This document shows positions 1-54,234 of a DNA stretch of 54,234 nucleotides, one piece after another (positions within the stretch are counted from its first letter, which is position 1; each line of letters begins with the position of its first letter). Position numbers and translations under genes: made by a program. Origin of the DNA: a virus; the IMG/VR virus record IMGVR_UViG_3300006916_000059, positions 1 to 54,234 of that record. The stretch is one strand, 5' to 3'. The notes below the pieces were generated by a model that made no database searches, had not been told where the DNA came from, and was given only the letters and a program-made list of their open reading frames with translations.

Positions 1-288
1 CCATCCATACTCCGAATCGCAAACAAATACATTATATCACATAGTTATAGAAAATGTTCCATTTTCGTTATAATCTATGTAGATAGAATGTAAAAAGTAA
101 ACTATCGAAACCAACATACTTGCCCCTGCACATGTAGGCTCGCACCTGCCCTCGCTTGCTTGCTGGCTTGCTTGTGGGGAAAAGAAAATCGCAAAATCAG
201 CAAATCGCTTTACTGCGGAAGGTTTTTCCTTTAGGGAAAACCGCCCTTTAGGGGGTCTTAGACCCTACGAGCCTGTATGAGCCTACGG

Positions 289-305
289 CTTCCTTTTAAA
301 GGAAG
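289..305. repeat. Palindrome CTTCCTTT-T-AAAGGAAG
   Basis: Arms of 8 bp around a single base, perfect match. Part of the chain of inverted repeats in the left non-coding region, next to the imperfect palindrome GGGTCTTAGACCC at 253-265. Confidence 0.8.
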
Positions 306-330
306 TTGCTTATAGATTTTTGCGAATTAC

Positions 331-346
331 CACCCCTAAAGGGGTG
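331..346. repeat. Hairpin CACCCC-TAAA-GGGGTG
   Basis: A 6-bp perfect stem with a TAAA loop. It is followed directly by a second small hairpin with a TTC loop (351-361) and a third (362-381, arms ACATATG/CATATGT). Confidence 0.8.
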
Positions 347-390
347 AAAGAGCCTTCGGCTACATATGTGTGAGCATATGTATGTAGGCA

Positions 391-429
391 ATTCTAAGAA
401 TAAGATGCTCTCATTCTTATTCTTAGAAT
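391..429. repeat. 15-bp perfect inverted repeat
   Basis: The arms 391-405 (ATTCTAAGAATAAGA) and 415-429 are exact reverse complements, separated by a 9-nt loop. This is the longest stem in the left non-coding region. It is not followed by a T-tract, so it is not an obvious intrinsic terminator. Confidence 0.85.
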
Positions 430-619
430 CTGATTTTAGTAATCGAAGATTACTACTGCACTATACTAAGAGTCAGTATAATTCTCCCATCTCCGATGAG
501 GAGAATATATACATGACTAATAGTATTAGAGCATATAGAAAAGCCGACAGAGGGATTTCCAAAGTCCTTATATGTGGAAGCCTACTCGGAGGGTTAAGTC
601 CGACCAAATAGGAGTGATA

Positions 620-1999
620 ATGATGAGCCGACAAAAACAATCGCCAAGAGCCACCCTACTTCGAGAAGTAGGCATTAAGACCAAGAACGCCAATTTTGAT
701 AGCACTTGTAAAGTGTGTTCAGCACCAATCAGAGGCACTTCTCCGAAGTGTTCTGTTGCTCAAGTCAAGATTCCTAAAGAATCTCGCAAAGCATCTTGGG
801 TTCACACTGATTGTGTAGACATCCACTATCACCTAAATGTTGAATCTCACTACCCCATCGCTAAAGCGATGACAATGACACAACAAAAGCGATTCATCGG
901 AGATGACTTCAAAGAAGACGCACCAAAAGAAGATACTCCAAAGGAGACACCAAAAATGCCAACACCAAAACCAACACCTACACCTAAGCCTATACCTACA
1001 AGCGTAAAGGGTGGAGACCCTGCCGGTGAAGCACTTGCTTCAATGGTAATGCCTCACCTTATGGCCGGTTTCACCGACCATGTTGATACCGTAATGAACG
1101 ACAAGATTAATGCTTTAGCATTACCTCGAACAACAATTGTCAAGCCTCTTGGTGACTTCGAAGAAGTCAAAGTTGGTCTAACTCACCCTTGCTTCGATGA
1201 AGCACTTGACTTAGGTCGCATCCGTGCTAATTGCTTGGCTTCCGGTCCTGCTGGGTCTGGTAAGACCCATGCCGCAAAACAGATATTCGACACTCTAAAG
1301 AGTCTACCGGAATCAGCCGGTGGATTCGCAAAACCCGACACTGTAAGATTTACAGTGATTTCTTGTCACAATGAAATGATGCCTTCCGACATAGTCGGCC
1401 CAATGGTTCCTAATATCTCCACAGGAGATGAAAAGCATCGCATTACTGAAATTGTAAACACTTTCAGAGATGGTGGAGTCCTCGTCTTTGACGAGTTTGA
1501 TAGACTCATGGGTGGTACAGCCGTAGCCGCAAACATGGCTTTAGCCAACGATAGTTGGACTATGCCGGATGGTTCAGTAATATACAAGTCTCCCGACTTG
1601 TTTATTCTTGCTACTGCAAATACACTTGGTCAAGGTAAAGGTCGCTCTGCTTATGTTTCTGCTGAAACATTAGACGGTGCTACTCTAAATCGCTTCGCTG
1701 GAGGAGTAATTCGCTGGGGCTATGACAGAGCATTCGAGAGAATGCTTATCGGTGACGATGAAATCGTCTCCTTCTTCCATGATTTGAGAGACCGTGCTGA
1801 CAAGGCTGGCCTTGTCTCCCGTATTATCTCTCCTCGCCACATGCTTACTGCTAAGAAGCAGAAGCATATCTTAGGCTACGATATGGAAAGAATCCGAAGG
1901 ATAGCAGTTAGAGATTGGAATCGCAAAGACCTCAAAACCATTGGTTTTGATAACGAATTTATTGACGGTGCTTTAGCAACTAACGGAGGTGCGGCTTGA
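620..1999 (+). CDS. MoxR/CobS-type AAA+ ATPase with N-terminal zinc-binding region
   Basis: About 459 residues. The N-terminus has a C-x2-C...C...H-x2-C cluster (about residues 30-70), likely a zinc site, followed by a Lys/Pro/Thr-rich linker. The AAA+ core has Walker A GPAGSGKT near residue 208, Walker B VLVFDEFD near 288 and a sensor-1-like ILATAN. This arrangement is that of MoxR/CobS/NorQ ATPases, which remodel protein complexes together with a von Willebrand A partner; the next gene looks like that partner. Start chosen at 620 (or 623) because AGGAG at 611-615 is well placed; the longer frame from 572 has no SD. The substrate in this virus is unknown. Confidence 0.85.
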   Translation: MMSRQKQSPRATLLREVGIKTKNANFDSTCKVCSAPIRGTSPKCSVAQVKIPKESRKASWVHTDCVDIHYHLNVESHYPIAKAMTMTQQKRFIGDDFKEDAPKEDTPKETPKMPTPKPTPTPKPIPTSVKGGDPAGEALASMVMPHLMAGFTDHVDTVMNDKINALALPRTTIVKPLGDFEEVKVGLTHPCFDEALDLGRIRANCLASGPAGSGKTHAAKQIFDTLKSLPESAGGFAKPDTVRFTVISCHNEMMPSDIVGPMVPNISTGDEKHRITEIVNTFRDGGVLVFDEFDRLMGGTAVAANMALANDSWTMPDGSVIYKSPDLFILATANTLGQGKGRSAYVSAETLDGATLNRFAGGVIRWGYDRAFERMLIGDDEIVSFFHDLRDRADKAGLVSRIISPRHMLTAKKQKHILGYDMERIRRIAVRDWNRKDLKTIGFDNEFIDGALATNGGAA

Positions 2000-2015
2000 G
2001 ACCCCTTCGGGGGTC
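2000..2015. promoter_or_regulatory. UUCG hairpin between ATPase and VWA-like genes
   Basis: GACCCC-TTCG-GGGGTC, a 6-bp GC stem capped by the very stable UUCG tetraloop, starts right after the stop codon of the ATPase gene and ends 22 nt before the next start. Only a short TTTT follows. It could act as an attenuator, an mRNA processing or stability element, or a weak terminator. Confidence 0.6.
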
Positions 2016-2037
2016 TCGGCCTTTTGGAGGTTTTCAC

Positions 2038-3000
2038 ATGTCAGATACACAAGTAATCCGCTATGAACATGGCACAAGAGTAGGTTTCCACAAGTCTAAA
2101 GACTTGTCCTGTAATTTCACTATTAGTGATACCCCTGCTGATGCAGGTCATTTTCTTGACTCCTTGACCGACTCTGATTTCAAAGGGTATGACCCTTTGA
2201 GCAGAAAGCCCGACCTATCATGGATAGGTCGAGAAGACTTGAAAGGTGATAAAAGCATCAGAACTCGCAGAGATATAGCATCCAAGTTAGGCGAGTATGT
2301 AGATAATGACCACAAGCAAATCGCATCTTGTCGAAACAAGATGTCCGACCTTGTAGATTCAATTGACTTGTCGCAACTTAAGCGTATGCTTAAGTGGTCT
2401 GATAGCAGAGGTAAAGTAAACGCTACTCGTTTACTAAACGGCGACTCAATGTTCCGTAGGACAATTCGCAGAGGTTCAGCACCTGTTGAAGCCGTAGCAC
2501 TTGTAGTGCCAACCGGCGCAAATTGTAACATCAATGCTGATGTTATCTTCGCAAGAACGGCAGTCGCCCTCGCCGCCGCCGACCTGCTTAGTCAAGCAGG
2601 TTTCGCAGTAGAGGTCTGGGCTTATGCCTACACAAAAAATTGTCTTGACGATTCACCTAACGGTACAAGTAATGCCTTAGCCGGTGTCAAAATCAAGGAT
2701 GCAGACGAAGGTCTGAATGAGGCAATCGCCGCATCAGCCGGTAGTGCATGGTTCTTTAGAACCGGCATGTTTGGAATGTGGTCTCATATGGGTGACGCTA
2801 ATAGTTGGCTTGGTAATTCAATAGACTTGACTGTTAGTCAAGGTAAACAAGTCGCAAATATCATCGGCCTTGAAAAGGCTCATGTTATGAGAACAGGTAC
2901 AGGTCAACATAGCGTAGAGGATGCTATCAAGGCTGGCATCGAAGATGTAAAACAGGCACTAATCAAGTGGGTTAGTGGTGATGAAGAAATGGAGGAATGA
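2038..3000 (+). CDS. VWA-like partner of the MoxR-type ATPase
   Basis: 320 residues. GGAGG at 2025-2029 fixes the start at 2038 rather than an upstream in-frame TTG. The central part (from about residue 150) reads VALVVPTGANCN followed by a helix rich in Ala and then FAVEVWAYA, a pattern like the first strand, helix and second strand of a VWA fold. The metal-binding DxSxS motif of true VWA domains is replaced by PTGANCN. Known MoxR ATPases are encoded next to VWA proteins and act with them, so this is the probable partner. The fold assignment rests on pattern and context, not on a profile match. Confidence 0.6.
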   Translation: MSDTQVIRYEHGTRVGFHKSKDLSCNFTISDTPADAGHFLDSLTDSDFKGYDPLSRKPDLSWIGREDLKGDKSIRTRRDIASKLGEYVDNDHKQIASCRNKMSDLVDSIDLSQLKRMLKWSDSRGKVNATRLLNGDSMFRRTIRRGSAPVEAVALVVPTGANCNINADVIFARTAVALAAADLLSQAGFAVEVWAYAYTKNCLDDSPNGTSNALAGVKIKDADEGLNEAIAASAGSAWFFRTGMFGMWSHMGDANSWLGNSIDLTVSQGKQVANIIGLEKAHVMRTGTGQHSVEDAIKAGIEDVKQALIKWVSGDEEMEE

Positions 3001-3002
3001 AA

Positions 3003-3338
3003 ATGGAATTGAAAATACCAATAGAGGATATTGCAGAAGCAATAGCAAAAAATGAAGAAGCCCGCAGGTATGTAGTAACATACTCTCAATTAGCAAACGA
3101 TGTAGGTCTCTTAGGAGACCATGTGAAAGTTGAGGTCGAAGTCGAAACCTTCGGCGAAGCCATGTATAATTACATGCAATCAGATTGTTTCAAGCAGGGT
3201 CTAATAGACCCTCAAGACTACAAGTCTGCATCAGTAGCAATACTGACGCTGATTGAGAATATTGTAAAATCTAACGAAGAAATAGAAAGTATCTCTATCG
3301 AGATACCAAGCATGTCATTCATGGGGGTGGAAGCATGA
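3003..3338 (+). CDS. Unknown acidic small protein
   Basis: 111 residues, not recognised. It is acidic, with a predicted helical N-terminus (IEDIAEAIAKNEEAR) and no cysteine cluster or membrane segment. GGAGG in the last codons of the preceding gene favours ATG 3003 over ATG 2997, which sits only 1-2 nt after the SD. It overlaps the next start by an ATGA-type junction, so the two are likely translated together. Confidence 0.7.
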   Translation: MELKIPIEDIAEAIAKNEEARRYVVTYSQLANDVGLLGDHVKVEVEVETFGEAMYNYMQSDCFKQGLIDPQDYKSASVAILTLIENIVKSNEEIESISIEIPSMSFMGVEA

Positions 3339-3646
3339 GGGATAGACATGATGAGGCACTTATGGATAAGATGTGCAACCATGTCACACCCGAAGGTATG
3401 ACGAGGGTTCTCAAGTTGGATGCTATGTCTGCCGTAGGTTTCATAGAAACCTTCCAACAAGAATACGCAACTCCTCCGAGGGATGCGTTTGACTTCCTCA
3501 TGTCTCTTCAAGGCACAGACCTATGGGAGACCTACATGGGCATAGACCAATTTTTGACTACCGAAGGTAAAAGAATCGCAAACATGTTTCCTACGGAGAC
3601 TTTCAGACACATGTTAGAGGTGTTCGCAGATGACCTATGTCAGTGA
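3335..3646 (+). CDS. Unknown small protein
   Basis: 103 residues, not recognised. Predicted mostly helical, no cysteine pairs beyond C14 and the C-terminal C102, no membrane segment. GGGGGTGG lies 5-12 nt ahead of ATG 3335, and the start overlaps the stop of the previous gene. It closes the first operon, which starts with the ATPase gene; a gap with a promoter-like element follows. Confidence 0.7.
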   Translation: MRDRHDEALMDKMCNHVTPEGMTRVLKLDAMSAVGFIETFQQEYATPPRDAFDFLMSLQGTDLWETYMGIDQFLTTEGKRIANMFPTETFRHMLEVFADDLCQ

Positions 3647-3686
3647 GCCTGTGCGAGAGAAAAATCGCTACTCGACAAACATTGAA

Positions 3687-3717
3687 TTTAAATACAGGAA
3701 ACCCCCCTATAAGGAGT
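3687..3717 (+). promoter_or_regulatory. Archaeal-type promoter and CCCCTATAAGG leader
   Basis: TTTAAATA at 3687-3694 is a good archaeal TATA box, centred about 35 nt before ATG 3725. It is followed by CCCCCCTATAAGGAGTGA at 3702-3719, whose end provides the SD. Related CCCCTATA leaders occur at about 7220 and 8860. The preceding gap (3647-3686) contains no gene. Confidence 0.6.
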
Positions 3718-3724
3718 GAAAAGC

Positions 3725-4180
3725 ATGACGGAAAAATACGACTATGACGACAAAGAGCGATTTGAACACATTGGCATAGCCAAAGTTAGGTTCAATGGAC
3801 AAGGAAGAACGACAGTGGCGGTCTATAAAGACCACCAAGACAGGTGTATGCACTTGAGACCCGTACCATTCGGTACACCTTCACTTGCATGGATTCCTCA
3901 TTATGATGAGGATGACAATAACAATCTGTGGAAAGAAATCAATCAACACAAGGAAGAATCCCGAAAGAGTATTTTCTCCCTTAGCAGATACAGAGGTGCA
4001 GGTAAGCGAAAGCCTACCAAATCCGCAAAGAGATTCACGACAAGGGCAGTCAGACCTACAGGCTTACCCGAAATAGAGCCTCGCTCTCCTTCGGAGAGAA
4101 ACACTAAGAAAGTCTCCATAGCAGAAGTATCTGCTATGATTGCTAAAGAAATGGAAGACATATTCGGGGGTGATGAATGA
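3725..4180 (+). CDS. Unknown basic protein
   Basis: 151 residues, not recognised. The first half has a beta-rich segment (HIGIAKVRFNGQGRTTVAVY); the middle (about 80-120) is very basic and Ser/Arg/Lys-rich, suggesting nucleic-acid contact, and the end is an acidic helix. ATG 3725 is preferred over GTG 3716 because AAGGAG lies 8 nt upstream of it. First gene of the second early operon. Confidence 0.7.
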   Translation: MTEKYDYDDKERFEHIGIAKVRFNGQGRTTVAVYKDHQDRCMHLRPVPFGTPSLAWIPHYDEDDNNNLWKEINQHKEESRKSIFSLSRYRGAGKRKPTKSAKRFTTRAVRPTGLPEIEPRSPSERNTKKVSIAEVSAMIAKEMEDIFGGDE

Positions 4181-4443
4181 TGAGTCCAATCTTAGATTGT
4201 CTTGAGATGATTGCTAAAGACTCACTCTTCGAGTTTACGGCTTCGCAGACTCGTCATGGTGAGTTTATAATAAGGGCTACGAGAGTAGATTCACGCCAAG
4301 AATTTTCCATAATAAATTATGGCTACGGTAAAGATGAAAATCTGCTTGAAGTTTTAGCACTTGGTCATGGTCATGACCCTATTGGATGGGCTACGCCTAA
4401 AGCCGTAATGACATACATGAGAATGGGAGATTGGGAGGAGTGA
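4177..4443 (+). CDS. Unknown small protein
   Basis: 88 residues, not recognised. Starts with ATGATG overlapping the previous stop; GGGGGTGATG supplies the SD. No cysteine cluster; one short beta-rich stretch (GEFIIRATRVDSRQEFSIINYGYG). Ends in WEE because the SD of the next gene (GGGAGGAG) is written into its last codons. Confidence 0.65.
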   Translation: MMSPILDCLEMIAKDSLFEFTASQTRHGEFIIRATRVDSRQEFSIINYGYGKDENLLEVLALGHGHDPIGWATPKAVMTYMRMGDWEE

Positions 4444-4445
4444 AT

Positions 4446-4643
4446 ATGGAAAAATGGGTGACTTGCGAAAATTGTGATGCCGAAGTCTGCATAGACTTCT
4501 ATGTGGATAGTATGACCGTAATGGAAGGTGATGAGCATATAGAAGCGTATGACGACTTCGACTGCTCGGAGTGCGGGCATGAAATACACCTAACTGCTTA
4601 CTTCAAAATTGTAGGTTTTGCGATTGGAGGTGCTTCAGAATGA
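4446..4643 (+). CDS. Zinc-ribbon protein
   Basis: 65 residues. Two cysteine pairs, CENC near residue 7 and CSEC near residue 45, separated by about 35 residues, are the layout of a four-cysteine zinc ribbon; a further Cys follows the first pair. Start at 4446 with GGAGG 9 nt upstream. Likely a small nucleic-acid or protein-binding adaptor; target unknown. One of about 17 CxxC proteins in the plus arm. Confidence 0.7.
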   Translation: MEKWVTCENCDAEVCIDFYVDSMTVMEGDEHIEAYDDFDCSECGHEIHLTAYFKIVGFAIGGASE

Positions 4644-4825
4644 AGCAAAGAGGTGAGGCAGGTATCAGAATTACACTACATGACGGAGTCATGTATGTTC
4701 ATCACGAAGATGGCACACTCCTACATCAGAGAGACGCATGGGATGGTGAGTGGGATGAATTGTGGCAATTCATTCGCAGACCATTCCCTAATACCTTGCG
4801 TGGTATCACGGGGGGAGAGGAATGA
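4640..4825 (+). CDS. Unknown small protein
   Basis: 61 residues, not recognised. Contains a beta-hairpin-like stretch (IRITLHDGVMYVHHEDGTLL) and a Trp-rich helix (WDGEWDELWQFIRR). GGAGG upstream and a 4-nt overlap with the previous gene support the start. A longer overlapping frame (4653-4871) looks like a shadow. Confidence 0.65.
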   Translation: MKQRGEAGIRITLHDGVMYVHHEDGTLLHQRDAWDGEWDELWQFIRRPFPNTLRGITGGEE

Positions 4826-5076
4826 CACTAAGCGACCATCAAGATTCAGAGTCTTTCATGGGTGTGCGTAGCGAAGATGAGTTGCTACATATGCTTGACT
4901 TAGCCGAGCGTAAGCAGAACCACCACTTTACTGCCCTACAAAGTGTATTTACCGAAAGCGACTTTGATAAGAAACTGCGTAATTATCACATGAGAAACTA
5001 CAAAGCCCTACAGGGCGTTGTAAAATCTTTGCGATGGGTTCTCGGAGATAAGGATGTGAAACATCCTCTGGAGTGA
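4822..5076 (+). CDS. Unknown helical protein
   Basis: 84 residues, not recognised, predicted helical with a basic centre (FDKKLRNYHMRNYKALQGVVKSLRW). The start overlaps the previous stop (ATGA) with GGGGGGAGAGG directly ahead. No membrane segment or zinc motif. Confidence 0.65.
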   Translation: MTLSDHQDSESFMGVRSEDELLHMLDLAERKQNHHFTALQSVFTESDFDKKLRNYHMRNYKALQGVVKSLRWVLGDKDVKHPLE

Positions 5077-5083
5077 TTCGCAA

Positions 5084-5296
5084 ATGTTAGTAGATATGAT
5101 TGAGACTAAAGAAGGAGTATGGGTTCCCATACTCGAATCGCATCTCGTCAGACATGACGGGCGTATAGGCATACATATGCGTCTGCAATACAAGCATGAC
5201 GCTATACATATGCGTGACACAGACGAAGTGGTTTGGGTTAAGAAGAAGTTAAATACTGACGACCCCTATTTAGAATTAACACACGAGGAAGAGTGA
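5084..5296 (+). CDS. Unknown small protein
   Basis: 70 residues, not recognised. Mixed alpha/beta with several His residues (HLVRHDGRIGIHMRL). The SD of the start is weak (CTGGAGTGA, about 14 nt upstream). The C-terminus THEEE is formed by codons that double as the SD of the following gene. Confidence 0.6.
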   Translation: MLVDMIETKEGVWVPILESHLVRHDGRIGIHMRLQYKHDAIHMRDTDEVVWVKKKLNTDDPYLELTHEEE

Positions 5297-5541
5297 TGAG
5301 AATGGAATATAACCGAGAAATCTATGACGCTTACGATGATATGTTAGACAGTTGCTACGAAGATGTTGCTATCTTTGGTGTGCCTCGCGCACCATCTGTA
5401 GTATTCAAAATCGTAGACCCAATTATGTATGAAATTGGTCTACACGAGTATTTAGATGATTTGATGGAAGACGGTCTTTTCTGCCCTGTATGTGAGTATG
5501 TAGGCGAAAAGGACTGCTATTGCGAAGAAGAGGAGGAATGA
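5296..5541 (+). CDS. Small acidic protein with C-terminal cysteine cluster
   Basis: 81 residues if started at ATG 5296 (5302 also possible). The C-terminus has CPVC...CYC, enough for a small metal site, followed by five glutamates. The Glu tail contains the GAGGAGG SD of the next gene. Function not recognised; possibly a zinc-dependent protein-protein adaptor. Confidence 0.65.
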   Translation: MRMEYNREIYDAYDDMLDSCYEDVAIFGVPRAPSVVFKIVDPIMYEIGLHEYLDDLMEDGLFCPVCEYVGEKDCYCEEEEE

Positions 5542-5546
5542 GCAAA

Positions 5547-5762
5547 ATGAGTTTAGAACACTACGAAGAAATCATGTCACAGATTTGTGACATATTAGAG
5601 AACGGCGATATAGTCGAAGACTTTATCGAAGAACCTAACCGAGCGACAACATTGGGTATCATACACACTATTGTTCGCAGGGAAATGAAAAACATAAAAG
5701 CGCAGAGAGAAGTCCTGTCACTTTTGCGAATGAGAAGCAGAGAAAGAAGAGAGGAGGAATGA
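5547..5762 (+). CDS. Unknown helical protein
   Basis: 71 residues. ATG 5547 is preferred over ATG 5538 because the GGAGG SD lies 10 nt upstream of it and only 1 nt ahead of 5538. Helical throughout, with a basic C-terminal half (MKNIKAQREVLSLLRMRSRERR) and an EEE tail carrying the next SD. Not recognised. Confidence 0.65.
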   Translation: MSLEHYEEIMSQICDILENGDIVEDFIEEPNRATTLGIIHTIVRREMKNIKAQREVLSLLRMRSRERREEE

Positions 5763-5765
5763 AAA

Positions 5766-6056
5766 ATGAGAATGACAAAAGAAAACAAAGAATGGATGAG
5801 ACACGCCATATACTTAGGCGAAGATAACATGGAGATATTTGATTCAAGGTGGGAATGGATTTCCGAGGCTTGGATAAATACACCACTGAACCAACAATGT
5901 ATTTTCTATCAGAAATATGTAGAGTTCGGAGGCGAAGATAATTTGTCCTATGATAATAGAGAAGCATTAGAGAAGGCTTACAACTATGCTTACGACAAGA
6001 TACTGGATTGTCACAGAGAATTAGACAGGCGACTTAACTTAACACAGGAGGAATAA
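5766..6056 (+). CDS. Unknown aromatic-rich helical protein
   Basis: 96 residues, not recognised. Rich in Trp and Tyr (SRWEWISEAWINTPLNQQCIFYQKYVEF), predicted helical. GAGGAGGAATGAAAA before ATG 5766 gives a clear SD. Ends in TQEE, again overlapping the next SD. Confidence 0.65.
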   Translation: MRMTKENKEWMRHAIYLGEDNMEIFDSRWEWISEAWINTPLNQQCIFYQKYVEFGGEDNLSYDNREALEKAYNYAYDKILDCHRELDRRLNLTQEE

Positions 6057-6058
6057 AC

Positions 6059-6268
6059 ATGAATGAAAAAGAATTGATGAATATAGCAAATGAAATGAAA
6101 GATGCTTCGATTGAATTGGTTAGGGGTGTAAGAGACGCACTTCACGATATAGTCGCAGACCTAATAGGCGGTAGTGCGGTTCACGCATTTACAAAATTGT
6201 GCGTACTGTTAGAAACAGTAGAAGCAGGTTATGAGAGTTTGACCGAAGAAGGAGGTGAAGAAGAATGA
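6059..6268 (+). CDS. Unknown small helical protein
   Basis: 69 residues, not recognised. Predicted four-helix content, no membrane segment; ends GGEEE with the downstream SD GGAGG inside it. Start at ATG 6059 two bases after the previous stop, SD GGAGGA 7 nt upstream. Confidence 0.65.
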   Translation: MNEKELMNIANEMKDASIELVRGVRDALHDIVADLIGGSAVHAFTKLCVLLETVEAGYESLTEEGGEEE

Positions 6269-6636
6269 TTGGGGTAGAAGATTATGTCGCTCTTAGGTTC
6301 AACACTATAGCAGGTGACTCAAAGATTAATGTAATCATGCGTAGACCGGATGGCTATGTATCTGATGTAGTGGTTGACTTGCACAAACCTGTGATACATG
6401 GGATTTGTGCGATTTGTTCGGAGGATATGCAACAAACAGAGTTTGGTTATATATGCAAGCAACACAATGTTCCTGTTGTGATGGCGAAAAGTGTAACTAC
6501 TAAAGTAGTAGCAACAAGAAAGCAATTCGCAAAAACAAATATTGGCTCTAATCATGTTGGTATGATTAGAGACAATAAAGTAGACATGGCAGATGTGAAG
6601 CAACAAGTCGCAGATGCTCTGGAGGATTTGCTATGA
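6265..6636 (+). CDS. Zinc-finger-containing unknown protein
   Basis: 123 residues. The middle has CAIC...C...H (about residues 48-71), a probable single zinc site; the flanks are a beta-rich N-terminus and a helical, basic C-terminus (VATRKQFAKTNIGSNH). Overlaps its neighbours by ATGA junctions on both sides. Not recognised; the composition suits nucleic-acid binding. Confidence 0.65.
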   Translation: MIGVEDYVALRFNTIAGDSKINVIMRRPDGYVSDVVVDLHKPVIHGICAICSEDMQQTEFGYICKQHNVPVVMAKSVTTKVVATRKQFAKTNIGSNHVGMIRDNKVDMADVKQQVADALEDLL

Positions 6637-6686
6637 TATTCGACATGTGGCTGGAATGGCCTAAGTTGAGGTGGTGGAAGAAATGA
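6633..6686 (+). CDS. Possible 17-residue peptide
   Basis: ATG at 6633 overlaps the preceding stop, and its own stop (6684-6686) overlaps the next ATG at 6683. The peptide is MIFDMWLEWPKLRWWKK. The exact fit between two genes and the ATGA junctions at both ends suggest translation, either as a real micropeptide or as a coupling element that delivers ribosomes to the HNH gene. No other evidence. Confidence 0.4.
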   Translation: MIFDMWLEWPKLRWWKK

Positions 6687-7210
6687 AAGGCATTCCTCTT
6701 ACCTGCGAGTTGGTTCCTACAGGAACATGGGGTTCAAACCTGCGTAGTCTCATGCCCCCTTCGGGATGGAATAGACTGCGTAAGTTTGTCTACGAAAGAG
6801 CAGATAACAAATGTGAATTGTGTGGGCAAGATGGTTTTTCGCAAAATCGCAAATGGGCAGTAGAGGCTCATGAGATTTGGTTGTATGACGATGTAAAAAA
6901 TGAGCAAAGTCTGATAGCGGTTCAGTCGCTTTGCCCTCGTTGCCACCTATGTAAGCACTTAGGCAGGTCTCTAAAGGTGGGTGCGGCTGAACAAGTGCGA
7001 AAACATATGAGAGAAATCAATGGTTGGGATGAAGAAACCCAACAGATGTACGAACAGTTTGTGTTTGCTATTCACAAACATAGGTCTCGTTTCCGGTGGA
7101 CTGTGAACATAGATATGCTTGAGGATTATGTTCATGCAGGTGCTATCAAACAAATTGACTTTGATAAATCAAAGGCAAAACTAAAGGGCGGTGCTACGGA
7201 AAATGATTAA
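6683..7210 (+). CDS. HNH-type endonuclease-like protein
   Basis: 175 residues. Zinc pair CELC near residue 49 and CPRCH near residue 89 bracket an AHE motif; the downstream KHLG completes the usual C-x2-C...HE...C-x2-C-H...KH layout of HNH/McrA-like nucleases. In HNH enzymes the AHE histidine acts as the general base, and a histidine in the last element binds metal. The role could be homing, DNA packaging nicking or host-DNA attack; being in an early operon rather than near terminase makes packaging less likely. Start 6683 chosen over GTG 6671 on SD spacing (GGTGG). Confidence 0.7.
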   Translation: MKGIPLTCELVPTGTWGSNLRSLMPPSGWNRLRKFVYERADNKCELCGQDGFSQNRKWAVEAHEIWLYDDVKNEQSLIAVQSLCPRCHLCKHLGRSLKVGAAEQVRKHMREINGWDEETQQMYEQFVFAIHKHRSRFRWTVNIDMLEDYVHAGAIKQIDFDKSKAKLKGGATEND

Positions 7211-7230
7211 TAGGAGAAGCCCCCTATAAG
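7205..7230 (+). promoter_or_regulatory. Promoter-like leader with GGAGAAGCCCCCTATA
   Basis: GATTAATAGGAGAAGCCCCC followed by TATAAG starts inside the stop codon of the HNH gene. A nearly identical block, AGGAGAAGCCCCTATA, occurs at 8855-8870. TTAATAGG resembles the TATA-like half of the other intergenic elements. Position and repetition argue for a promoter or operator. Confidence 0.5.
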
Positions 7231-7252
7231 AGGCTGAACAGGAGTGAAAAAA

Positions 7253-7936
7253 ATGTTTAGAGACGAAGAATTTAGAGCAGATATGATTGAGACGGAAAGT
7301 GACGCAGTTACCTTCTACTACGCTTGCGTAGTAGGTAATGGTATAGTGTGGCAGACAGACAGAGGCCTATACAAGACAGACGGAACGCCAGCCGTAGATT
7401 TACCCGATGGTAAAGAATTGGAGATGTTAAATGAAGGTAATAAAATCGCAAGAAAAGTCCTTGCAGATGCACAAGTTGATGCACAAGAAGTTATGGATAT
7501 GTGTGAAAGTATATTGGTATGTAATCTTGTTTTACAAACAAGTGCTGACCTTGAAGGTCTTCCTTCAAGGAGAATTAAGAATTATGCGAATGAAGGAGAT
7601 GAACAGAAGAAGTTGAGAAGAAACTCTCACCTGTGGCAGATTATGGAAAGCACATTACAAATCTGTGTGCCAGACTTCGTCTCCACAAACGGAGGTTTAG
7701 CCGTACCTAAAGGGTTCCACCCCGTCATAGACACTTATGTTGCTTCTTGTATAAGAAGAATCCCCGTAGAAACTGTAACTACTGAATATACAGAAGACCA
7801 AGATACCGTACTTTCAACTATATTTGAAGAGGGTAAGAGGTTAGCAGATGAAGGTAAAATCCAACCTCGTGATTGGATAGACCCCGACAGTGATGACAAC
7901 GATGACGACCCGTTTTCTTCGGGAATGTGGGCGTGA
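7253..7936 (+). CDS. Unknown acidic protein
   Basis: 227 residues, not recognised. The N-terminal half has a beta-rich segment (FYYACVVGNGIVWQTDRGLYKTDG), the middle is helical, and the C-terminus is a very acidic tail (DPDSDDNDDD). Such tails are common in proteins that mimic or compete with nucleic acid, but that is only a possibility here. ATG 7253 preferred over GTG 7244 because AGGAG lies 8 nt upstream of it. Confidence 0.7.
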   Translation: MFRDEEFRADMIETESDAVTFYYACVVGNGIVWQTDRGLYKTDGTPAVDLPDGKELEMLNEGNKIARKVLADAQVDAQEVMDMCESILVCNLVLQTSADLEGLPSRRIKNYANEGDEQKKLRRNSHLWQIMESTLQICVPDFVSTNGGLAVPKGFHPVIDTYVASCIRRIPVETVTTEYTEDQDTVLSTIFEEGKRLADEGKIQPRDWIDPDSDDNDDDPFSSGMWA

Positions 7937-8150
7937 TAACTTGTATCAACATGCAAATACCATACAGGCTCTACAAGAAGCCGTTGTTATGCTTGAGCAT
8001 ATGACTCAAGCGTATACTATGCTCGTTCCAGAGCAGACACATAATATGCTCACACGACTTAGAGTTTGGCGTAATATTTGCGACAAGGCTCTATTGGAAA
8101 TAGAGGCTAATGTTAGGAAAGACAAAATGAGAGGAGGAGTAACAAGATGA
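7890..8150 (+). CDS. Unknown helical protein, start uncertain
   Basis: Up to 86 residues, overlapping the preceding gene by 47 nt if the first ATG is used. A TTG at 7941 just after the previous stop is an alternative that would remove the overlap. The body is a long amphipathic helix (NTIQALQEAVVMLEHMTQAYTML). Not recognised. Confidence 0.5.
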   Translation: MMTTMTTRFLRECGRDNLYQHANTIQALQEAVVMLEHMTQAYTMLVPEQTHNMLTRLRVWRNICDKALLEIEANVRKDKMRGGVTR

Positions 8151-8599
8151 ATAGAGACACATATATGTTTATCAATGCTGACGGTGGCGTTGCTAAATTA
8201 ACAGAAGAAGAACCGACCTTAGAAGAGATGCAAGCCCATGTAGGAGGACTTATCGAATACGCAGTAGTCACCTCACAGAAGAAATTCGCAGTACCGAAAA
8301 AAGGAAAGGGTAAATGCCTTCTGACGAATGTCAAAGATGTTATTGTGAATGAAGAGGGGCTTTTGTTAGGTATGTCTCCTAACGCAGTAGCCACATTCGC
8401 CGCATGGGGATATGATATTACCAGCGAGCAACAGTTAGTAGGCCCCTGTATAATAGTTTGCGAAACTCCAAGTGAAGATTCAGAGGAAGTAGGTCTTGAG
8501 TGGATTGTTGAAAATATGATTCCTCAAAACATGCGTGATTTATTAGTACCACGAAACAACTATCACTATATGTCAGCAAACTACAGAGGTGATGAGTAG
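8147..8599 (+). CDS. DUF3846-like phage protein
   Basis: 150 residues. The stretch TLEEMQAHVGGLIEYAVV, then VIVNEEGLLLGMSPNAVAT and finally LVGPCIIV follows the order of conserved blocks in the DUF3846 family of small phage proteins, whose function is unknown. Clear GAGGAGG SD; the start overlaps the previous stop by ATGA. Family call is from memory of the pattern. Confidence 0.65.
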   Translation: MNRDTYMFINADGGVAKLTEEEPTLEEMQAHVGGLIEYAVVTSQKKFAVPKKGKGKCLLTNVKDVIVNEEGLLLGMSPNAVATFAAWGYDITSEQQLVGPCIIVCETPSEDSEEVGLEWIVENMIPQNMRDLLVPRNNYHYMSANYRGDE

Positions 8600-8871
8600 T
8601 GACTTCAATAGTGTGTATGGTATGTGGGGAGATTGCTCAAAACAAGTCCTCGAAGTATAGTAGGTATAACCTGCGGGATATTGTATGCGTTAAATGTTCT
8701 TATGCGGAGAAGATGCTCGACATTCGTAGTTATTGTGTGAATGCCGAAGGCAAGACTCCCGAACAGTGTAATATAGAAGAAACAGATTGGCGAAGTAAAG
8801 TTTTAGCAACGAGACAGAACACTGATAAATTTCTTATAAAGCAAGATATTAAAAAGGAGAAGCCCCTATAG
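8599..8871 (+). CDS. Zinc-ribbon protein with GTG start
   Basis: 90 residues. CMVC near residue 6 and CVKC near residue 30 form a compact four-cysteine site. The GTG start overlaps the TAG of the preceding gene and has only a weak SD. The last codons run into the GGAGAAGCCCCTATA element that precedes the next gene. Confidence 0.6.
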   Translation: MTSIVCMVCGEIAQNKSSKYSRYNLRDIVCVKCSYAEKMLDIRSYCVNAEGKTPEQCNIEETDWRSKVLATRQNTDKFLIKQDIKKEKPL

Positions 8872-8872
8872 G
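8847..8872 (+). promoter_or_regulatory. Promoter-like element AGGAGAAGCCCCTATA
   Basis: TATTAAAAAGGAGAAGCCCC followed by TATAGG lies across the end of the preceding zinc-ribbon gene. It shares 15-16 bases with the element at 7211-7227 and the CCCCTATAAGG part with the one at 3703. Its end gives the SD of the gene at 8884. Confidence 0.5.
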
Positions 8873-8883
8873 AAGTGAGAAAC

Positions 8884-9075
8884 ATGGAATGCAGTATATG
8901 TAATGGAGAGATTGAGAAGAAATACACGACTAACCTTGAGGGTGAGCGTGTAATGTATTGGGATGGCGGTCATAACGCACAGCCCATAAATGACGGAAGG
9001 TGTTGTGATGCCTGTAACGAAGTAGTCGTAGCAGTAAGAATCGCAAAAATGTTTGGTAGGAGGAAAGCAGAATGA
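8884..9075 (+). CDS. Zinc-finger protein
   Basis: 63 residues. CSIC near residue 3 and CCDAC near residue 40 with a histidine between them; an N-terminal MECSICNGEIEKKY is typical of small phage zinc proteins. ATG 8884 is chosen over GTG 8875 because GGAAGTGA lies ahead of it. Function unknown. Confidence 0.65.
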   Translation: MECSICNGEIEKKYTTNLEGERVMYWDGGHNAQPINDGRCCDACNEVVVAVRIAKMFGRRKAE

Positions 9076-9281
9076 CAGAAGTAAAACAGAAGTTAGAAGA
9101 ATTAGCAGAAGAATATAACGACTTAGAGCAATTGCTTAGAGACGCAGAGGTGGCGGAAACACTTGTTGACGCTCTCACAAGCGAGTTAGGAGACAGACAC
9201 GGTTGGTTAAGTGAAATCGTGTATTATCTGCGTATGGAAATCGAAGAGAAGATGCAAGAGATAGAGGGTAGATTAGAATGA
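9072..9281 (+). CDS. Coiled-coil protein
   Basis: 69 residues, essentially one or two long helices with heptad-like Leu spacing (VKQKLEELAEEYNDLEQLLRDAEVAETLVDAL...). No zinc or membrane motif. Overlaps neighbours by 4 nt at both ends. Likely an oligomerising small early protein; not recognised. Confidence 0.65.
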   Translation: MTEVKQKLEELAEEYNDLEQLLRDAEVAETLVDALTSELGDRHGWLSEIVYYLRMEIEEKMQEIEGRLE

Positions 9282-9814
9282 ACATATTCGTATTAGACGA
9301 GAACCCCTTCCATGCGGCTATCATGTATTGCGACAAGCATCTGCCTAAGATGGTAGTCGAATTGTACCAACAATTAGGCTCAAGTGTACGCAGACATGGT
9401 GCTACAGACGACATGATGCCAATAGCAAAAACATCCGGCAAGCCTCTGAAAGGCGGTTATCACAACCACCCTGCGACTCGCTGGGTGGGCGAAAGTCGTG
9501 ACAATTTCATATGGGCTTGCTATCATGCCTCTGCTTTAGCACAAGAGTATGCCAAAAGATTTGGTAAAACCCACGCTTGCGCTGATGGTATAGAGCATCT
9601 ATGGTCTCTGTCTTCTCTTATTCCCGAAGGGAAAATGACTCCCTTCGTTCAATGTATGCCGGATGAGTTTAAACACGAAGACGCAGTTGTGGCATACAGA
9701 GCATACTATCACAGCAAACATTTCGCAAAATGGCAAAAGGGTCGCCATGCGCCCTATTGGTGGAACGATGAGCAATACCTGTATGGTGTTAAGTATGAAG
9801 TGGGAGGTGCATAA
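9278..9814 (+). CDS. MNIFVLD-family phage protein (DNA-glycosylase-like annotation elsewhere)
   Basis: 178 residues. The opening MNIFVLDENPFHAA, then YCDKHLPKMVVELYQ, HNHPATRW, NFIWACYHASALAQEY, TPFVQCMPDEF and VAYRAYYHSK are the conserved blocks of a family widespread in marine phages, sometimes annotated as pyrimidine-dimer DNA glycosylase. The conserved His/Arg/Asp residues suggest an enzyme, but the repair activity is not established to my knowledge. Start overlaps the previous stop by ATGA. Confidence 0.7.
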   Translation: MNIFVLDENPFHAAIMYCDKHLPKMVVELYQQLGSSVRRHGATDDMMPIAKTSGKPLKGGYHNHPATRWVGESRDNFIWACYHASALAQEYAKRFGKTHACADGIEHLWSLSSLIPEGKMTPFVQCMPDEFKHEDAVVAYRAYYHSKHFAKWQKGRHAPYWWNDEQYLYGVKYEVGGA

Positions 9815-9846
9815 ATACAATATACTCATTAGAGTATGTTGTTAGT

Positions 9847-10623
9847 ATGCAGACAATAAGACTTCATGGCGAATGGTTGATATGTCCTCTCGAAGAAATC
9901 AAAGTCATAGACTTTCAGTGTTGGAGAAAGAATGGTCGCAACAAGCGAAAATTCTCACCCTACCTGCATCTGCAAGTAGGTTCACACCATGTAGTGTTTG
10001 ATGGCTATGATTCCGTATGGTCGTTTTTAGATACGATACAACCTAATATGTATCGCACTATCGTAAACTCGGCTATGAAGGGGGATATTAAAGAAATTCC
10101 TTTCTTTAAATATGAATTAGACGCTCTGATAGAAGAATCGCATTTGGAGTTGATTACGATTACAATCGCCTCTGATAGGATTCTAATCCCAAATTCTACT
10201 AAATCTCTTGAATGCTATCTTGTTAAGGATATTGTTGCGAATGAAATAATCGAAAATGATATTTCAAAACACAACTTTGTTGTAAAGACCTATACTCCTT
10301 ACAGGTCTAAACATGGTCTTGAGTATGTGCCTACGGAGATATACGGTTCTCACCCACAATATGCTATGCTTATCCATGCGGATAATACATACATCACACA
10401 GAGCCTCGTATACAATCCAGATGGCGCAGACTTCAGACCCGTTAGGACACACGCTTCAGACGACATAAGTTTTGCTAAAGAGATTTTAAACGATATGATA
10501 TTCAGAATGACTGAATACGAATATCCGCAAAACGATTTAGATAACAAAGACTCTATCGGTATGCGTTACATAGAAAGGGATTCTATCGAACATGAAAGAT
10601 TTATTTTTGCTCTGCAAAATTAA
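9847..10623 (+). CDS. Unknown 258-residue protein
   Basis: Not recognised. Alpha/beta protein without cysteine clusters or membrane segments. A short gap (9815-9846) ahead of it has ATAAATACAATATA, a possible TATA box, and a small hairpin ATACTC-ATTA-GAGTAT; there is no SD, so the message may be leaderless. Last gene before the 235-bp intergenic region. Confidence 0.7.
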   Translation: MQTIRLHGEWLICPLEEIKVIDFQCWRKNGRNKRKFSPYLHLQVGSHHVVFDGYDSVWSFLDTIQPNMYRTIVNSAMKGDIKEIPFFKYELDALIEESHLELITITIASDRILIPNSTKSLECYLVKDIVANEIIENDISKHNFVVKTYTPYRSKHGLEYVPTEIYGSHPQYAMLIHADNTYITQSLVYNPDGADFRPVRTHASDDISFAKEILNDMIFRMTEYEYPQNDLDNKDSIGMRYIERDSIEHERFIFALQN

Positions 10624-10858
10624 TTCAGAAAGAATTAATCGCATTCAGTGATGCGTTTTCGGTTTATTTTTTATTTTTTCTTAGATATATTTCTAAAAAG
10701 GGTTTTCTTTATTATTAGTAAATAATAAGGTTTTAACTCTTAGGAAATAAAAAAGAATAATCTGATTAGGCTCTAAGTGTTGCGTTTTATTTTTTCTGAA
10801 TTATTTCAGAGATTCCAAAACATTAGATTGATAAGGTCATAAGGGGGTATGTAGCAAC
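10617..10858. other. AT-rich intergenic region: terminator, hairpins, possible origin
   Basis: The largest gap between genes after the left end. It holds the stem TTAATTC-AGAAA-GAATTAA (10620-10638), then CGCAT-TCAGTG-ATGCG (10639-10654), T-tracts (10656-10680), a 7-bp AT stem around 10713-10732 and TCTGAA-TTAT-TTCAGA (10795-10810). The first hairpins plus T-tract fit a terminator; the composition and clustered stems could also suit a replication origin. A promoter-like element at 10828 follows. Confidence 0.5.
10828..10844 (+). promoter_or_regulatory. Promoter-like element TTGATAAGGTCATAAGG
   Basis: Same layout as the elements at 17930, 19891, 22321 and 26771: a TTRATAAGG core, then A/T-CAT and G-run. 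It begins 31 nt before ATG 10859, which would put transcription start at or next to the start codon if the core acts as the TATA box. Confidence 0.6.
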
Positions 10859-11665
10859 ATGGGAGAAATAGTAACAGTAAATGAAACGGACTTTATTTGG
10901 AGTAATGGTATACCTAAAGGTATCAAGCGAGCGATTCTATTCGATGCGGTAGGGTCAGACCACATACCCGCAGTAGTGGGTTCTTCGCTTGTAAAGAAGG
11001 TAGAACCTGTAGGTTACATGACTTCAAAACATATACCTTCATCCCCGCATACGATGTTAAGTTTCGGTTTTACAGGCTGGCCTATATATTACGGAAACGA
11101 TGAAGAGACTTTAGTAATTGAGATTCTAACACCCGCACACATAAGTACGGATAGTGGCGCACAGAAAAATGCGTGGCTTTTCAATTACCCACCGGCAAGA
11201 GATGTAGCAGTTATGCTTGATAACATAGGTTGCGAAACATTTTGCTTGCTGACTTCTGACGCTTTCGATGTAAGGAATGGAGAAGGTCTTGAGAAACCTG
11301 CGCTTGTAAAGGGTGAAGATATTGGTAACAAAGAGATTAGTAGAGACAGTCTCCAGACTCTATGGGGTTGGCTACCAGCATTCGTCTTCTCGCAAATAAA
11401 AGGTAAAGGTGCTTCGGTTCTGATTATACCTTCTCACGGACAGAAAATGGAGGTCACTCCATTCCAAGAAACTCATATCAATGCTACTATTGACATTCTC
11501 AAAAACTTAGGTTTCAAGATAGAAGGTTGTAAGAAAAGGGCGAAAGACATATATGCTAAGGCTTCTTCCGATACCGTAGAGGCGGCGAAAATGGCAGATG
11601 AGGTGATAACGAAAATGCTAAACAAAACGAGAGCGAGTAAGTATGAGGGGGGTATGTTCGGGTGA
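10859..11665 (+). CDS. Unknown alpha/beta protein
   Basis: 268 residues, not recognised. Alternating hydrophobic strands and helices (ILFDAVGSDHIPAVVGSS, SVLIIPSHGQKMEVTP), a Gly-rich segment HTMLSFGFTGWPIYYG and a basic helical C-terminus. No P-loop, zinc or membrane motif. Starts the operon that encodes the MCM-like ATPase, with a GTGA overlap, so it may work with it. Confidence 0.7.
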   Translation: MGEIVTVNETDFIWSNGIPKGIKRAILFDAVGSDHIPAVVGSSLVKKVEPVGYMTSKHIPSSPHTMLSFGFTGWPIYYGNDEETLVIEILTPAHISTDSGAQKNAWLFNYPPARDVAVMLDNIGCETFCLLTSDAFDVRNGEGLEKPALVKGEDIGNKEISRDSLQTLWGWLPAFVFSQIKGKGASVLIIPSHGQKMEVTPFQETHINATIDILKNLGFKIEGCKKRAKDIYAKASSDTVEAAKMADEVITKMLNKTRASKYEGGMFG

Positions 11666-12978
11666 ATATATTCGACAGGATGCTTGATTTCTGTAAAAGA
11701 AATCACATCATTGATGTAGATGACAAAGTACCAATCTTCCTATGTAGTATAGGCGGTCATTTGTTTAATACTGTAAACAAATGTAGTATGTGTGATTTCG
11801 CACCGAGAGAAGGAGACGGAGAAGATTCTCGGAGATTCGTTATTGAAGACTGTCCTCTTCGCCATACCAACTATCCTATCTACACACCCCGTTCTTCAAT
11901 AGCAGATACAAGAATCAACATTCTCATGCGTGGCGCAAAGGGTTCCGGTAAGAATGTTCTGATTGACTTATTCTGCGCTGAACATACAGGTGTGTTATGG
12001 AATCCCGAAGGATTCAGAGGTATTGGTTTTCGCACTATGATTGGCCCAAACTCTATCACAGAGGCGGGTATGTTCGGCTCTGTAAATGATGATGGTCAAA
12101 TCGTAGGGAGACCTCTCGCAAGAGAGACTTGCGGTGGTTTTCTCTGCTTTGAAGAGTTTTCATCTGTATCAGATGCAAACAAGAAAGACCATAGTATTGA
12201 CATGAAGAATCAATTGCTAACTTCGTTAGACTCTGGTCGTGTGAACAAAGGTATGCGTGATGGATGGGTGCGATACAATACTCGCTACACCGTATGGGGC
12301 GGAACACAACATGGTCGTATGGATTTGGAGTCTGGACTTGACCGTAGGTTTTTCATCATTGATATTAACATGGATGCTGAAAAGGAGGCTCTATACAAAG
12401 AAGCACAGAATAAACAAGCGAGTATGACGAGAGAAGAACGAGCGTATCTTGCAGGTGAGATTCTTGATTTACGGGCGTGGTTTATTGACAGGCAGTTATC
12501 AGTGACCCTCAATCCCCCTACGGGAGTTATGTTTAGCAAAGAGTTTGAAGATTGGGTTATGAAAGAATCGGTTCGTTCTTTCGAGTCTGATTTGTTTCGC
12601 AGATTAGCAATAGGTTATCACATGATGCGTGATGAAGAATGGAAAGGTGGTATCTTGCAGGTAGAGATGGATGATGCTCTACTCGAATTGTTAGAATCAT
12701 CTTTAAAGATGAGGCGAGATGTTATGGATGAAGACATTCGTCTTATCAAGACTACCTTCTGGGATAAAGATGTGCCACGAAGCACTTTAATAAAAGATGT
12801 TGCTAAACTAATCACAGACCATGATTACCAATCCGCTAAGAGGTGGATTGATGATACCTTGAAAGGTCAAGCATGGTTTACAGAATTTAGTCCTCGTACA
12901 GAGGGTAGGGGTAGAAGAGGCATTGTGTGTAGGTTTGGTCTGCCAGACGAGGGCGAGAATATGAAATGGGGTGTATGA
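11662..12978 (+). CDS. MCM-like AAA+ ATPase, candidate replicative helicase
   Basis: 438 residues. The N-terminal part has C-x2-C...C-x3-H (about residues 40-70), like the zinc site of MCM N-domains. The ATPase has Walker A GAKGSGKN near residue 91, Walker B FLCFEEF near 159 and an arginine-finger-like LDRRFF near 226; the C-terminal ~120 residues look like a winged helix. These follow the MCM order (GxxGxxKS, CIDEF, SRFD), with a divergent E-E Walker B. It is shorter than cellular MCMs (about 650). The GTG start overlaps the previous stop. A MoxR-like remodeller is the alternative. Confidence 0.65.
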   Translation: MNIFDRMLDFCKRNHIIDVDDKVPIFLCSIGGHLFNTVNKCSMCDFAPREGDGEDSRRFVIEDCPLRHTNYPIYTPRSSIADTRINILMRGAKGSGKNVLIDLFCAEHTGVLWNPEGFRGIGFRTMIGPNSITEAGMFGSVNDDGQIVGRPLARETCGGFLCFEEFSSVSDANKKDHSIDMKNQLLTSLDSGRVNKGMRDGWVRYNTRYTVWGGTQHGRMDLESGLDRRFFIIDINMDAEKEALYKEAQNKQASMTREERAYLAGEILDLRAWFIDRQLSVTLNPPTGVMFSKEFEDWVMKESVRSFESDLFRRLAIGYHMMRDEEWKGGILQVEMDDALLELLESSLKMRRDVMDEDIRLIKTTFWDKDVPRSTLIKDVAKLITDHDYQSAKRWIDDTLKGQAWFTEFSPRTEGRGRRGIVCRFGLPDEGENMKWGV

Positions 12979-12979
12979 T

Positions 12980-13270
12980 ATGGGAAAAAGAAAACCGAGA
13001 AGAGAAGCGAGATTTGCGAATTGGAGAGATGCTTGTTACAAGTTTCTGCTTGAAGATGAAGGCGAGTATAATACAAACGAATTGACGCAGAGGGTTCTGA
13101 CGGCAGATGGTAGGGTGTGGAAAAACTCACCTTCTGTGCGAGAAATCTGCCAAGTCCTCAAATACGACAGTAGGTTCGAGTATGTCGGCAATACGCAGAG
13201 TAAAAGCGTATTAGGCGGTAAATACATGAGTGCTACATTCAGAGCAAGGAGGTCGAAAGATGGTCTTTGA
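12980..13270 (+). CDS. Winged-helix-like small protein
   Basis: 96 residues, basic. The order helix (WRDACYKFLLEDEGEYNTNELTQRV), recognition-like helix (SPSVREICQVLKYDSRF) and hairpin (FEYVGNTQSK) fits a winged helix-turn-helix. It resembles the next gene in size, layout and motif order (DACYKFL/NACFDYI, QVLKYDSRF/QVLKRDKRF), so the two are probably tandem paralogues. ATG 12980 chosen because GTG 12971 overlaps the previous gene. Confidence 0.65.
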   Translation: MGKRKPRREARFANWRDACYKFLLEDEGEYNTNELTQRVLTADGRVWKNSPSVREICQVLKYDSRFEYVGNTQSKSVLGGKYMSATFRARRSKDGL

Positions 13271-23163: not shown

Positions 23164-23525
23164 GCATAAATTTAGCAGATTGGGCAGAAGAACAACCTCT
23201 TCATAGGATTCAGAATATAGCAAGTAGGGGGATAAAACTCCCTGCTTCTGAAATAGAATGGACTATGAAGCATATGGGTTCTGTTATGTCTATCACTAAA
23301 TTACACAGAAAAATAGTAGTTATGTATGCGGTTCTTAGAGATATGGAAGTAGGACAGATTCTTACGGCAGAATATATTGCTAATCTTGCTAACGAATATT
23401 GTAGACCTAATGCGATAATACATACTCGTATGGTGTCAAGAATCTTAATGCTTCTCGCAAAATGGGGCTACATACAGAGAATACCAATCAATTCAAATAT
23501 CTATGAGTATAAGAGGATTAAATGA
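23160..23525 (+). CDS. Winged-helix-like protein
   Basis: 121 residues. VMYAVLRDMEVGQILTAEYIANLANEY, then IIHTRMVSRILMLLAKWGYIQRI and a short hairpin are the helices and wing of a winged HTH. It lies between the clamp and a methyltransferase and overlaps both by 4 nt. The pattern recalls C-terminal winged helices of replication proteins, but a regulator is equally possible. Confidence 0.6.
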   Translation: MSINLADWAEEQPLHRIQNIASRGIKLPASEIEWTMKHMGSVMSITKLHRKIVVMYAVLRDMEVGQILTAEYIANLANEYCRPNAIIHTRMVSRILMLLAKWGYIQRIPINSNIYEYKRIK

Positions 23526-29193: not shown

Positions 29194-29218
29194 GTATGAC
29201 AAAGTTTTGTCTTATAAC

Positions 29219-50017: not shown

Positions 50018-50029
50018 TCAAACACCACC

Positions 50030-50926: not shown

Positions 50927-50953
50927 ATTTTTCATCTCCTTAATTTATCCACC

Positions 50954-51376: not shown

Positions 51377-51389
51377 ATTTTTCATCTCC

Positions 51390-53855: not shown

Positions 53856-53859
53856 AATA

Positions 53860-54213: not shown

Positions 54214-54234
54214 AAGCCATAGATAAATAACAGG

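Follow-up and report, generated by a model that had tools for sequence, protein, structure and literature searches.

The closest analogue of the array described here appears to be the palindromes in coding sequence of hairworm (Nematomorpha) mitochondria. Those palindromes lie in functional protein genes, reach up to 284 bp, and have been both gained and lost; their perfection is "binary," imperfect repeats not being in excess, and arm conversion or template switching has been proposed by the authors (PMC6649704). Template switching homogenizes repeat arms and inverts spacers (PMC8604942) and can create a hairpin in one event (PMC8794818). Genome-wide surveys have described inverted repeats that are mainly intergenic and near terminators (PMC13155455). 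The virus locus studied here resembles the nematomorph case in having perfect inverted repeats inside intact genes, binary perfection, and gains and losses (PMC6649704), and it resembles the surveyed repeats in that its repeats are perfect, their arms being relatively conserved while the spacers vary more (PMC13155455). It differs from the long mitochondrial repeats in comprising hundreds of stems of 6 to 9 bp with loops of 3 to 4 nt, in showing a gradient from a fixed landmark and a non-coding array, and in belonging to a dsDNA tailed virus, and from the surveyed repeats in that coding genes of one arm are filled. In the open-access literature searched, no such arrays were found reported in phages or archaeal viruses. 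To our knowledge, no virus with a covarying DNA-level hairpin array has been described.

The window analyzed was the whole 54,234-nt stretch of IMG/VR virus record IMGVR_UViG_3300006916_000059, which represents part of a genome. Encoded in the genome are PolB, a clamp loader, an ERCC4/XPF-type nuclease with a helix-hairpin-helix, a PD-(D/E)XK exonuclease, two DNA methyltransferases, and tailed-virus structural genes. The distant matches of PolB were to haloarchaeal tailed viruses and T4-like phages, and the host is likely archaeal. A tRNA scan found none, and neither megablast nor searches with the DUF7192 and ERCC4 proteins gave a match among phage records. A terminase profile run against bacterial and archaeal genome contigs retrieved no relative and provided no host or provirus lead.

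An earlier note on this sequence had pointed to very dense perfect stems in coding sequence of the left arm, at 750-5050, and had proposed that codons were chosen to keep the pairing. With a hairpin finder accepting perfect stems and loops of 3 to 8 nt, all 15 of the stems it listed were present, a few of them 1 or 2 bp longer (e.g., 1998-2017, 2180-2200, and 1932-1950), and the density proved to have been understated. As the null for coding DNA, synonymous codons were shuffled within each gene, keeping the protein and the codon usage (100 shuffles per gene). The gene at 572-1999 contained 18 stems of at least 6 bp where 1.75 were expected and 9 of at least 7 bp where 0.51 were expected, while the gene at 1996-3000 contained 10 stems of at least 7 bp (0.30 expected) and 8 of at least 8 bp (0.08 expected). 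For both genes the observed counts were reached in none of the 100 shuffles. The shuffled sequences thus fell far short of the observed density. Codons, and some amino acids too, are arranged to keep pairing, and no gene call accounts for the hairpins, as the note had also said. At 3-13 kb of the window the excess was weaker and varied gene by gene, and by about 14-30 kb it was gone. The late arm was mostly at the null, the sole late gene with a mild excess being the tape-measure gene at 37094-40552 (12 vs 6.5). The lower density that had been noticed past about 10 kb and in the late arm is therefore real, the excess being confined to the early arm.

The usual hairpin had a stem of 6 to 9 bp and a loop of 3 to 4 nt, and within the array one occurred every 45 to 100 letters. 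Coding stems were common up to 8 bp and then dropped about 4-fold per bp, which is the chance-extension rate, ending at about 8 to 10 bp; stems in the non-coding part reached about 16 bp. The perfect inverted repeats sit within intact protein genes. The features are collected in Table 1.

Table 1. Features of the hairpin array and associated genes, in window coordinates
Feature	Position	Strand	Basis or remark
Right end of the non-coding hairpin array	1..570		7 stems of 6-8 bp in 1-480; join via L021
CobS-like AAA ATPase gene with 18 hairpins	572..1999	+	PF07728, 5.9e-11; synonymous shuffles
DUF7192 gene with 10 stems of at least 7 bp, including 8 of at least 8 bp	1996..3000	+	PF23822, 3.8e-13; shuffles
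Example hairpin, 9-bp stem, 3-nt loop	2180..2200		8/9 pairs kept in relative G004
Hairpin gained in the window lineage, 9-bp stem; changed arm is the 5' arm	2211..2231		Absent from sister and outgroups
Hairpin with both stem sides changed in G004 (CTTGACTGTTAGTCAAG to CTTGAGCGTTGCTCAAG), amino acids altered, pairing kept	2826..2842		
Two small early genes with hairpins	2997..3646	+	Shuffles, alignment
Gene for 154-aa basic protein, only in hairpin-bearing relatives	3716..4180	+	Gene-content comparison
Hairpin, 9-bp stem, 4-nt loop	4117..4138		Hairpin finder
Fading tail of the array across early genes	4177..13000	+	Finder, shuffles, density profile
N4/N6 DNA methyltransferase gene, only in hairpin-bearing relatives (correlate)	23522..24319	+	PF01555, 7.5e-40

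The region to the left of the window was recovered from contig L021 (also G002), which is near-identical to the window virus. L021 matches window 49631-54234, runs on for 7.2 kb, and then matches the window from position 1 onward at 99.8%. This bridge carries the portal, metallophosphoesterase, and terminase genes and then the non-coding hairpin array, which measures about 2.3 kb in full, its left 1.7 kb (L021:10062-11789) extending beyond the window up to the terminase gene. The longest stems occur in this non-coding DNA behind the terminase, and the densest part of the array falls here, outside the window to its left. The 750-5050 extent given earlier was correct as to the array's presence there and too narrow as to its limits, since the array reaches window base 1 and continues about 1.7 kb further left while fading past 5 kb. 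At the same place in a relative (G005), about 20 hairpins/kb run through reading frames of 318 and 191 aa. When genomes were rotated so that the 3' end of the terminase gene came first, the density of stems of 7 bp or more rose abruptly to 10-21/kb, faded over 10-15 kb, and was about 0.5-0.7/kb at 30-50 kb. The start of the trait beside the terminase suggests that a genome end, a replication start, or an early promoter lies there. From the L021 join and from relatives with end repeats, the genome was estimated at about 61-65 kb. The Magrovirales, whose hosts are marine group II archaea, have a PolB replisome and genomes of 90-110 kb (PMC12999244), a size that this genome does not reach.

Among terminase relatives, 18 loci had 8-17 stems/kb downstream and 16 loci had 0-2 stems/kb. 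On the maximum-likelihood terminase tree the hairpin label switches once (support 100/98), and the PolB and DUF7192 trees likewise separated the two sets, the DUF7192 tree having very long branches. The CobS-like and DUF7192 genes at the array site are common to bearing and sister viruses. In CobS, bearing viruses had 109 stems against 16.3 expected, and sister viruses 13 against 11.5; in DUF7192 the corresponding figures were 52 against 9.3 and 8 against 5.6. In HRTV-25, AG-345-P14, and S-WAM2 (first 50 kb of each), no single kb held more than 2-4 such stems. The hairpin array is an all-or-none trait of a single lineage among uncultured tailed DNA viruses, as seen in sequences that are all metagenomic, with few deep lineages and with near-identical contigs that do not count as independent. 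That all the data are metagenome contigs might invite the explanation that the array is an artefact of assembly or amplification, which we regard as scarcely credible: the same hairpins were present in independent samples (IMG/VR 3300006869, 3300007234, and 3300025889) at 99.8-99.9% identity, the reading frames are intact, the pairing covaries across species (see below), and sister viruses of the same collection do not have them. When the gene contents of 6 bearing and 4 sister genomes were compared, only two families, which are correlates of the trait, were found in all bearing genomes and in no sister: the N4/N6 DNA methyltransferase and the 154-aa basic protein, for which the AlphaFold model was of low confidence (pLDDT 66). 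The word TCGCARA is also over-represented. The replication genes are common to the sister viruses, which have no hairpin trait, a point against the template-switching account given below.

Conservation of pairing in relatives, the second check that the earlier note had proposed, was examined in pairwise BLAST alignments, and the pairing was found to be both conserved and covarying. Over five genome pairs, both partners had changed in 35.4% of changed stem cells, compared with 9-15% when partners were slid by 1-4 bases, and 81 of the 99 cells changed on both sides still formed Watson-Crick pairs in the relative. Across the aligned non-coding arrays, stems differed on both sides with pairing kept while loops drifted. 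Because defining hairpins in one of two compared genomes biases stem/flank divergence, a three-taxon test was used in which hairpins were defined in a third genome; divergence in the non-coding array was then 0.061 for stems, 0.200 for loops, and 0.129 for flanks. Between relatives at 1-2% divergence, two-sided stem changes were seen and one-sided changes were not. Two-sided multi-base changes were found between close relatives (L028/L029 and L057/L058). In L028/L029, which are 98.7% identical, the middle stem of one hairpin differs on both sides while the loop and the outer stem are the same; recombination import could explain such changes as an alternative to template switching.

In coding genes, about half of the hairpins were common to close relatives and the rest had been gained or lost, the density remaining alike. 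In the first small early gene (2997-3338), for example, most hairpins were missing from G004 or placed differently. Stem sequences and many positions are replaced between relatives while the density stays. Most hairpins lie within aligned, length-conserved genes, and they arise by substitution and not insertion, the alignments of gained hairpins being largely gap-free. This mode of gain makes it very improbable that a mobile or recombining palindromic element gave rise to the hairpins by inserting copies of itself, in the manner of Rickettsia palindromic elements and mitochondrial hairpin elements. The loop cores ATCGAAGAT, CTTCGG, and CTAAAG/CTTTAG do recur in the non-coding arrays, and a whole stem can differ between close genomes, as such copies might; however, the stems are unrelated in sequence. 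An array of sequence-specific nuclease- or protein-binding sites, one of the roles the note had offered, is likewise unlikely because the stems have no common sequence and are swapped wholesale between relatives.

Covariation by itself does not separate RNA pairing from DNA pairing. RNA viruses have genome-scale ordered RNA structure, formed at the RNA level and containing G-U pairs. A transcript-level target would make G·U the most frequent exception to perfect pairing. The array is like such ordered structure in having many stems across coding sequence and unlike it in that G·T is not favored and the loops are strand-symmetric. Single mismatches in otherwise perfect stems were G·T in 14 cases, A·C in 22, and other in 61, the same proportions as in shuffled sequences (25:35:98), and among one-sided changes between relatives in the three-taxon test G·T was about as frequent as A·C. 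For two-step compensations, 78.5% have been reported to involve G-U (PMC8794818). Loops were about as common as their own reverse complements (GAA 14 vs TTC 11; TTCG 4 vs CGAA 2), and compositions by loop position were strand-symmetric, whereas in rRNA the stable loop classes outnumber their reverse complements 8-66 times (PMC8794818). An Rfam scan of the window and L021 gave no match. We therefore consider it quite unlikely that the hairpins serve to fold early transcripts, whether against RNases, for translation control, or to escape RNA-targeting immunity, even though the affected genes are all early and on one strand, the stems are compatible with coding, and some non-coding hairpins are followed by terminator-like T runs. 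The role in mRNA stability or processing that had been proposed is accordingly disfavored, and the hairpins are apparently kept at the DNA rather than the RNA level. A DNA-level cause fits, be it cruciform, single-stranded DNA, or a replication process, and to this extent the cruciform and ssDNA elements of the earlier suggestion fit. The loop-closing pair was C-G in 110 cases and G-C in 39; together with the preferred loops of 3-4 nt, this suggests that a real fold-back is involved, beyond a duplex palindrome.

The property that is enriched is perfection. Perfect 7-bp stems numbered 577 against 9.2 expected from shuffles (62-fold), and one-mismatch 7-bp stems 176 against 72 (2.4-fold). Stem GC content differed little or not at all from background in most arrays, and likewise at third codon positions, which means that stems have not been enriched for thermodynamic stability. 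The binary perfection, the near-background stem GC, and the stem exchange in L028/L029 together favor template switching between arms. Our preferred reading, to which we give a probability of a little under one half (roughly 0.47), is that the array consists of short DNA hairpins maintained at the DNA level, with arms whose formation and perfection would be due to template switching, selection helping. A polymerase on fold-back DNA would copy one arm from the other, thereby creating the arms and keeping them perfect; the region would often be single-stranded, being near a replication start, a genome end, or a strongly transcribed early promoter; and stems damaged in only one arm would be selected against, which would help to retain the hairpins.

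Perfect arms, multi-base two-sided changes, and the lack of strand preference are shared with template-switch homogenization and quasipalindromes (PMC8604942, PMC8794818). Known events of this kind are scattered and rare, whereas here they would dominate about 10 kb in one clade. Template-switch homogenization also predicts free or inverted spacers (PMC8604942, PMC8794818), and neither arm polarity nor a clear excess of spacer inversion was found. In new hairpins the changes were spread over both arms (55 vs 57, noisy at 12% divergence), with no donor/recipient polarity, which counts against a purely mutational account. Loop inversions were few (4 among changed loops, not clearly above the shuffled expectations of 2.4 for 2-nt cores and 0.3 for 4-nt cores) and may count against it as well. 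So does the fall of coding stems at the chance rate past 8 bp, as though a stem of that length were already sufficient. Since stems in the non-coding array change more slowly than loops and flanks, selection probably acts too, and pure homogenization is not obviously sufficient.

Several of these observations lend weight to a selected DNA device, the main alternative though a tentative one, in which cruciforms or single-strand fold-backs in first-entering or origin-proximal DNA would have been built by point mutations and selection alone. The slow change of stems in the three-taxon test, the lack of one-sided stem changes at 1-2% divergence, the characteristic size of coding stems, the even split of gains between arms, and the constant density while positions turn over are all in its favor, as is the presence inside the array of one gene, that for the 154-aa protein, found only in bearing viruses. 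The device might protect against nucleases, block recombinase or SSB loading, take up supercoils, or serve as a docking site for a viral protein such as the 154-aa basic protein. Against it are the little or no GC enrichment of stems, the multi-base stem exchange between near-identical genomes, and the bare enrichment of one-mismatch stems, which a stable hairpin should tolerate. Should it hold, which we think possible but doubtful, the clade would carry a graded field of at least 100 hairpins or cruciforms that starts from the end of the genome with the packaging gene and serves entry, end protection, replication start, or evasion of a host defense directed at DNA. The proteins encoded by the early genes would then, with the same reservation, have been bent to preserve the hairpin field.

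If template switching drives the array, as we prefer, it would be a natural extreme case of a process usually seen event by event, with the sister clade as a built-in control, and it would allow one to ask which feature of the replisome, the genome end, or transcription triggers that process. If the array is instead a selected DNA structure, it would be a new viral genome feature, one that works through folded-back DNA and makes demands on the sequence that compete with those of the encoded proteins. The comparison of G·T with A·C and the strand symmetry of loops provide simple tests that separate RNA hairpins from DNA hairpins. Either way, dense covarying stem-loops in coding sequence need not imply RNA structure.

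About 7.2 kb of the virus genome is missing from the window and was supplied by contig G002, whose near-identical locus L021 joins window position 54234 to position 1; this portion (L021:4605-11789) was found to contain the portal, metallophosphoesterase and terminase genes and the hairpin array. The contigs of two relatives carry terminal direct repeats of 105 bp (G006) and 123 bp (G014), suggesting that these genomes, at 61-64 kb, are circular or circularly permuted. Within the non-coding hairpin array lies a small zinc-ribbon-like frame with counterparts in loci L016 and L041 of related viruses, and when judged by eye from the sequences it seems to be conserved across distant members.

Two of the encoded proteins, the ERCC4/XPF-type nuclease and the SbcD-like metallophosphoesterase, belong to enzyme types for which hairpins or cruciforms could be substrates. 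A sister virus (a related virus without the array) was also found to carry the ERCC4 gene. The N4/N6 DNA methyltransferase was present in all 6 hairpin-bearing genomes compared and in 0 of the 4 sister genomes.

The word TCGCARA was observed at 85 sites in the whole window versus 10.6 expected, and its density was 11-18 per 10 kb in hairpin-bearing relatives versus 4-8 per 10 kb in sister viruses. The word could mark sites of methylation, resemble Chi in function or have a regulatory role.

Coordinates of the features discussed
Feature	Location	Remark
Structure-specific ERCC4/XPF-type nuclease gene	window 29207-29926	
SbcD-like metallophosphoesterase gene	L021:7158-8387	
N4/N6 DNA methyltransferase gene	window 23522-24319	
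CxxC...CxxC zinc-ribbon-like small frame, ~40 aa	L021, about 10580-10710 (outside window)	by-eye reading
TCGCARA, example sites	window 17-23, 189-195, 784-790	spread genome-wide
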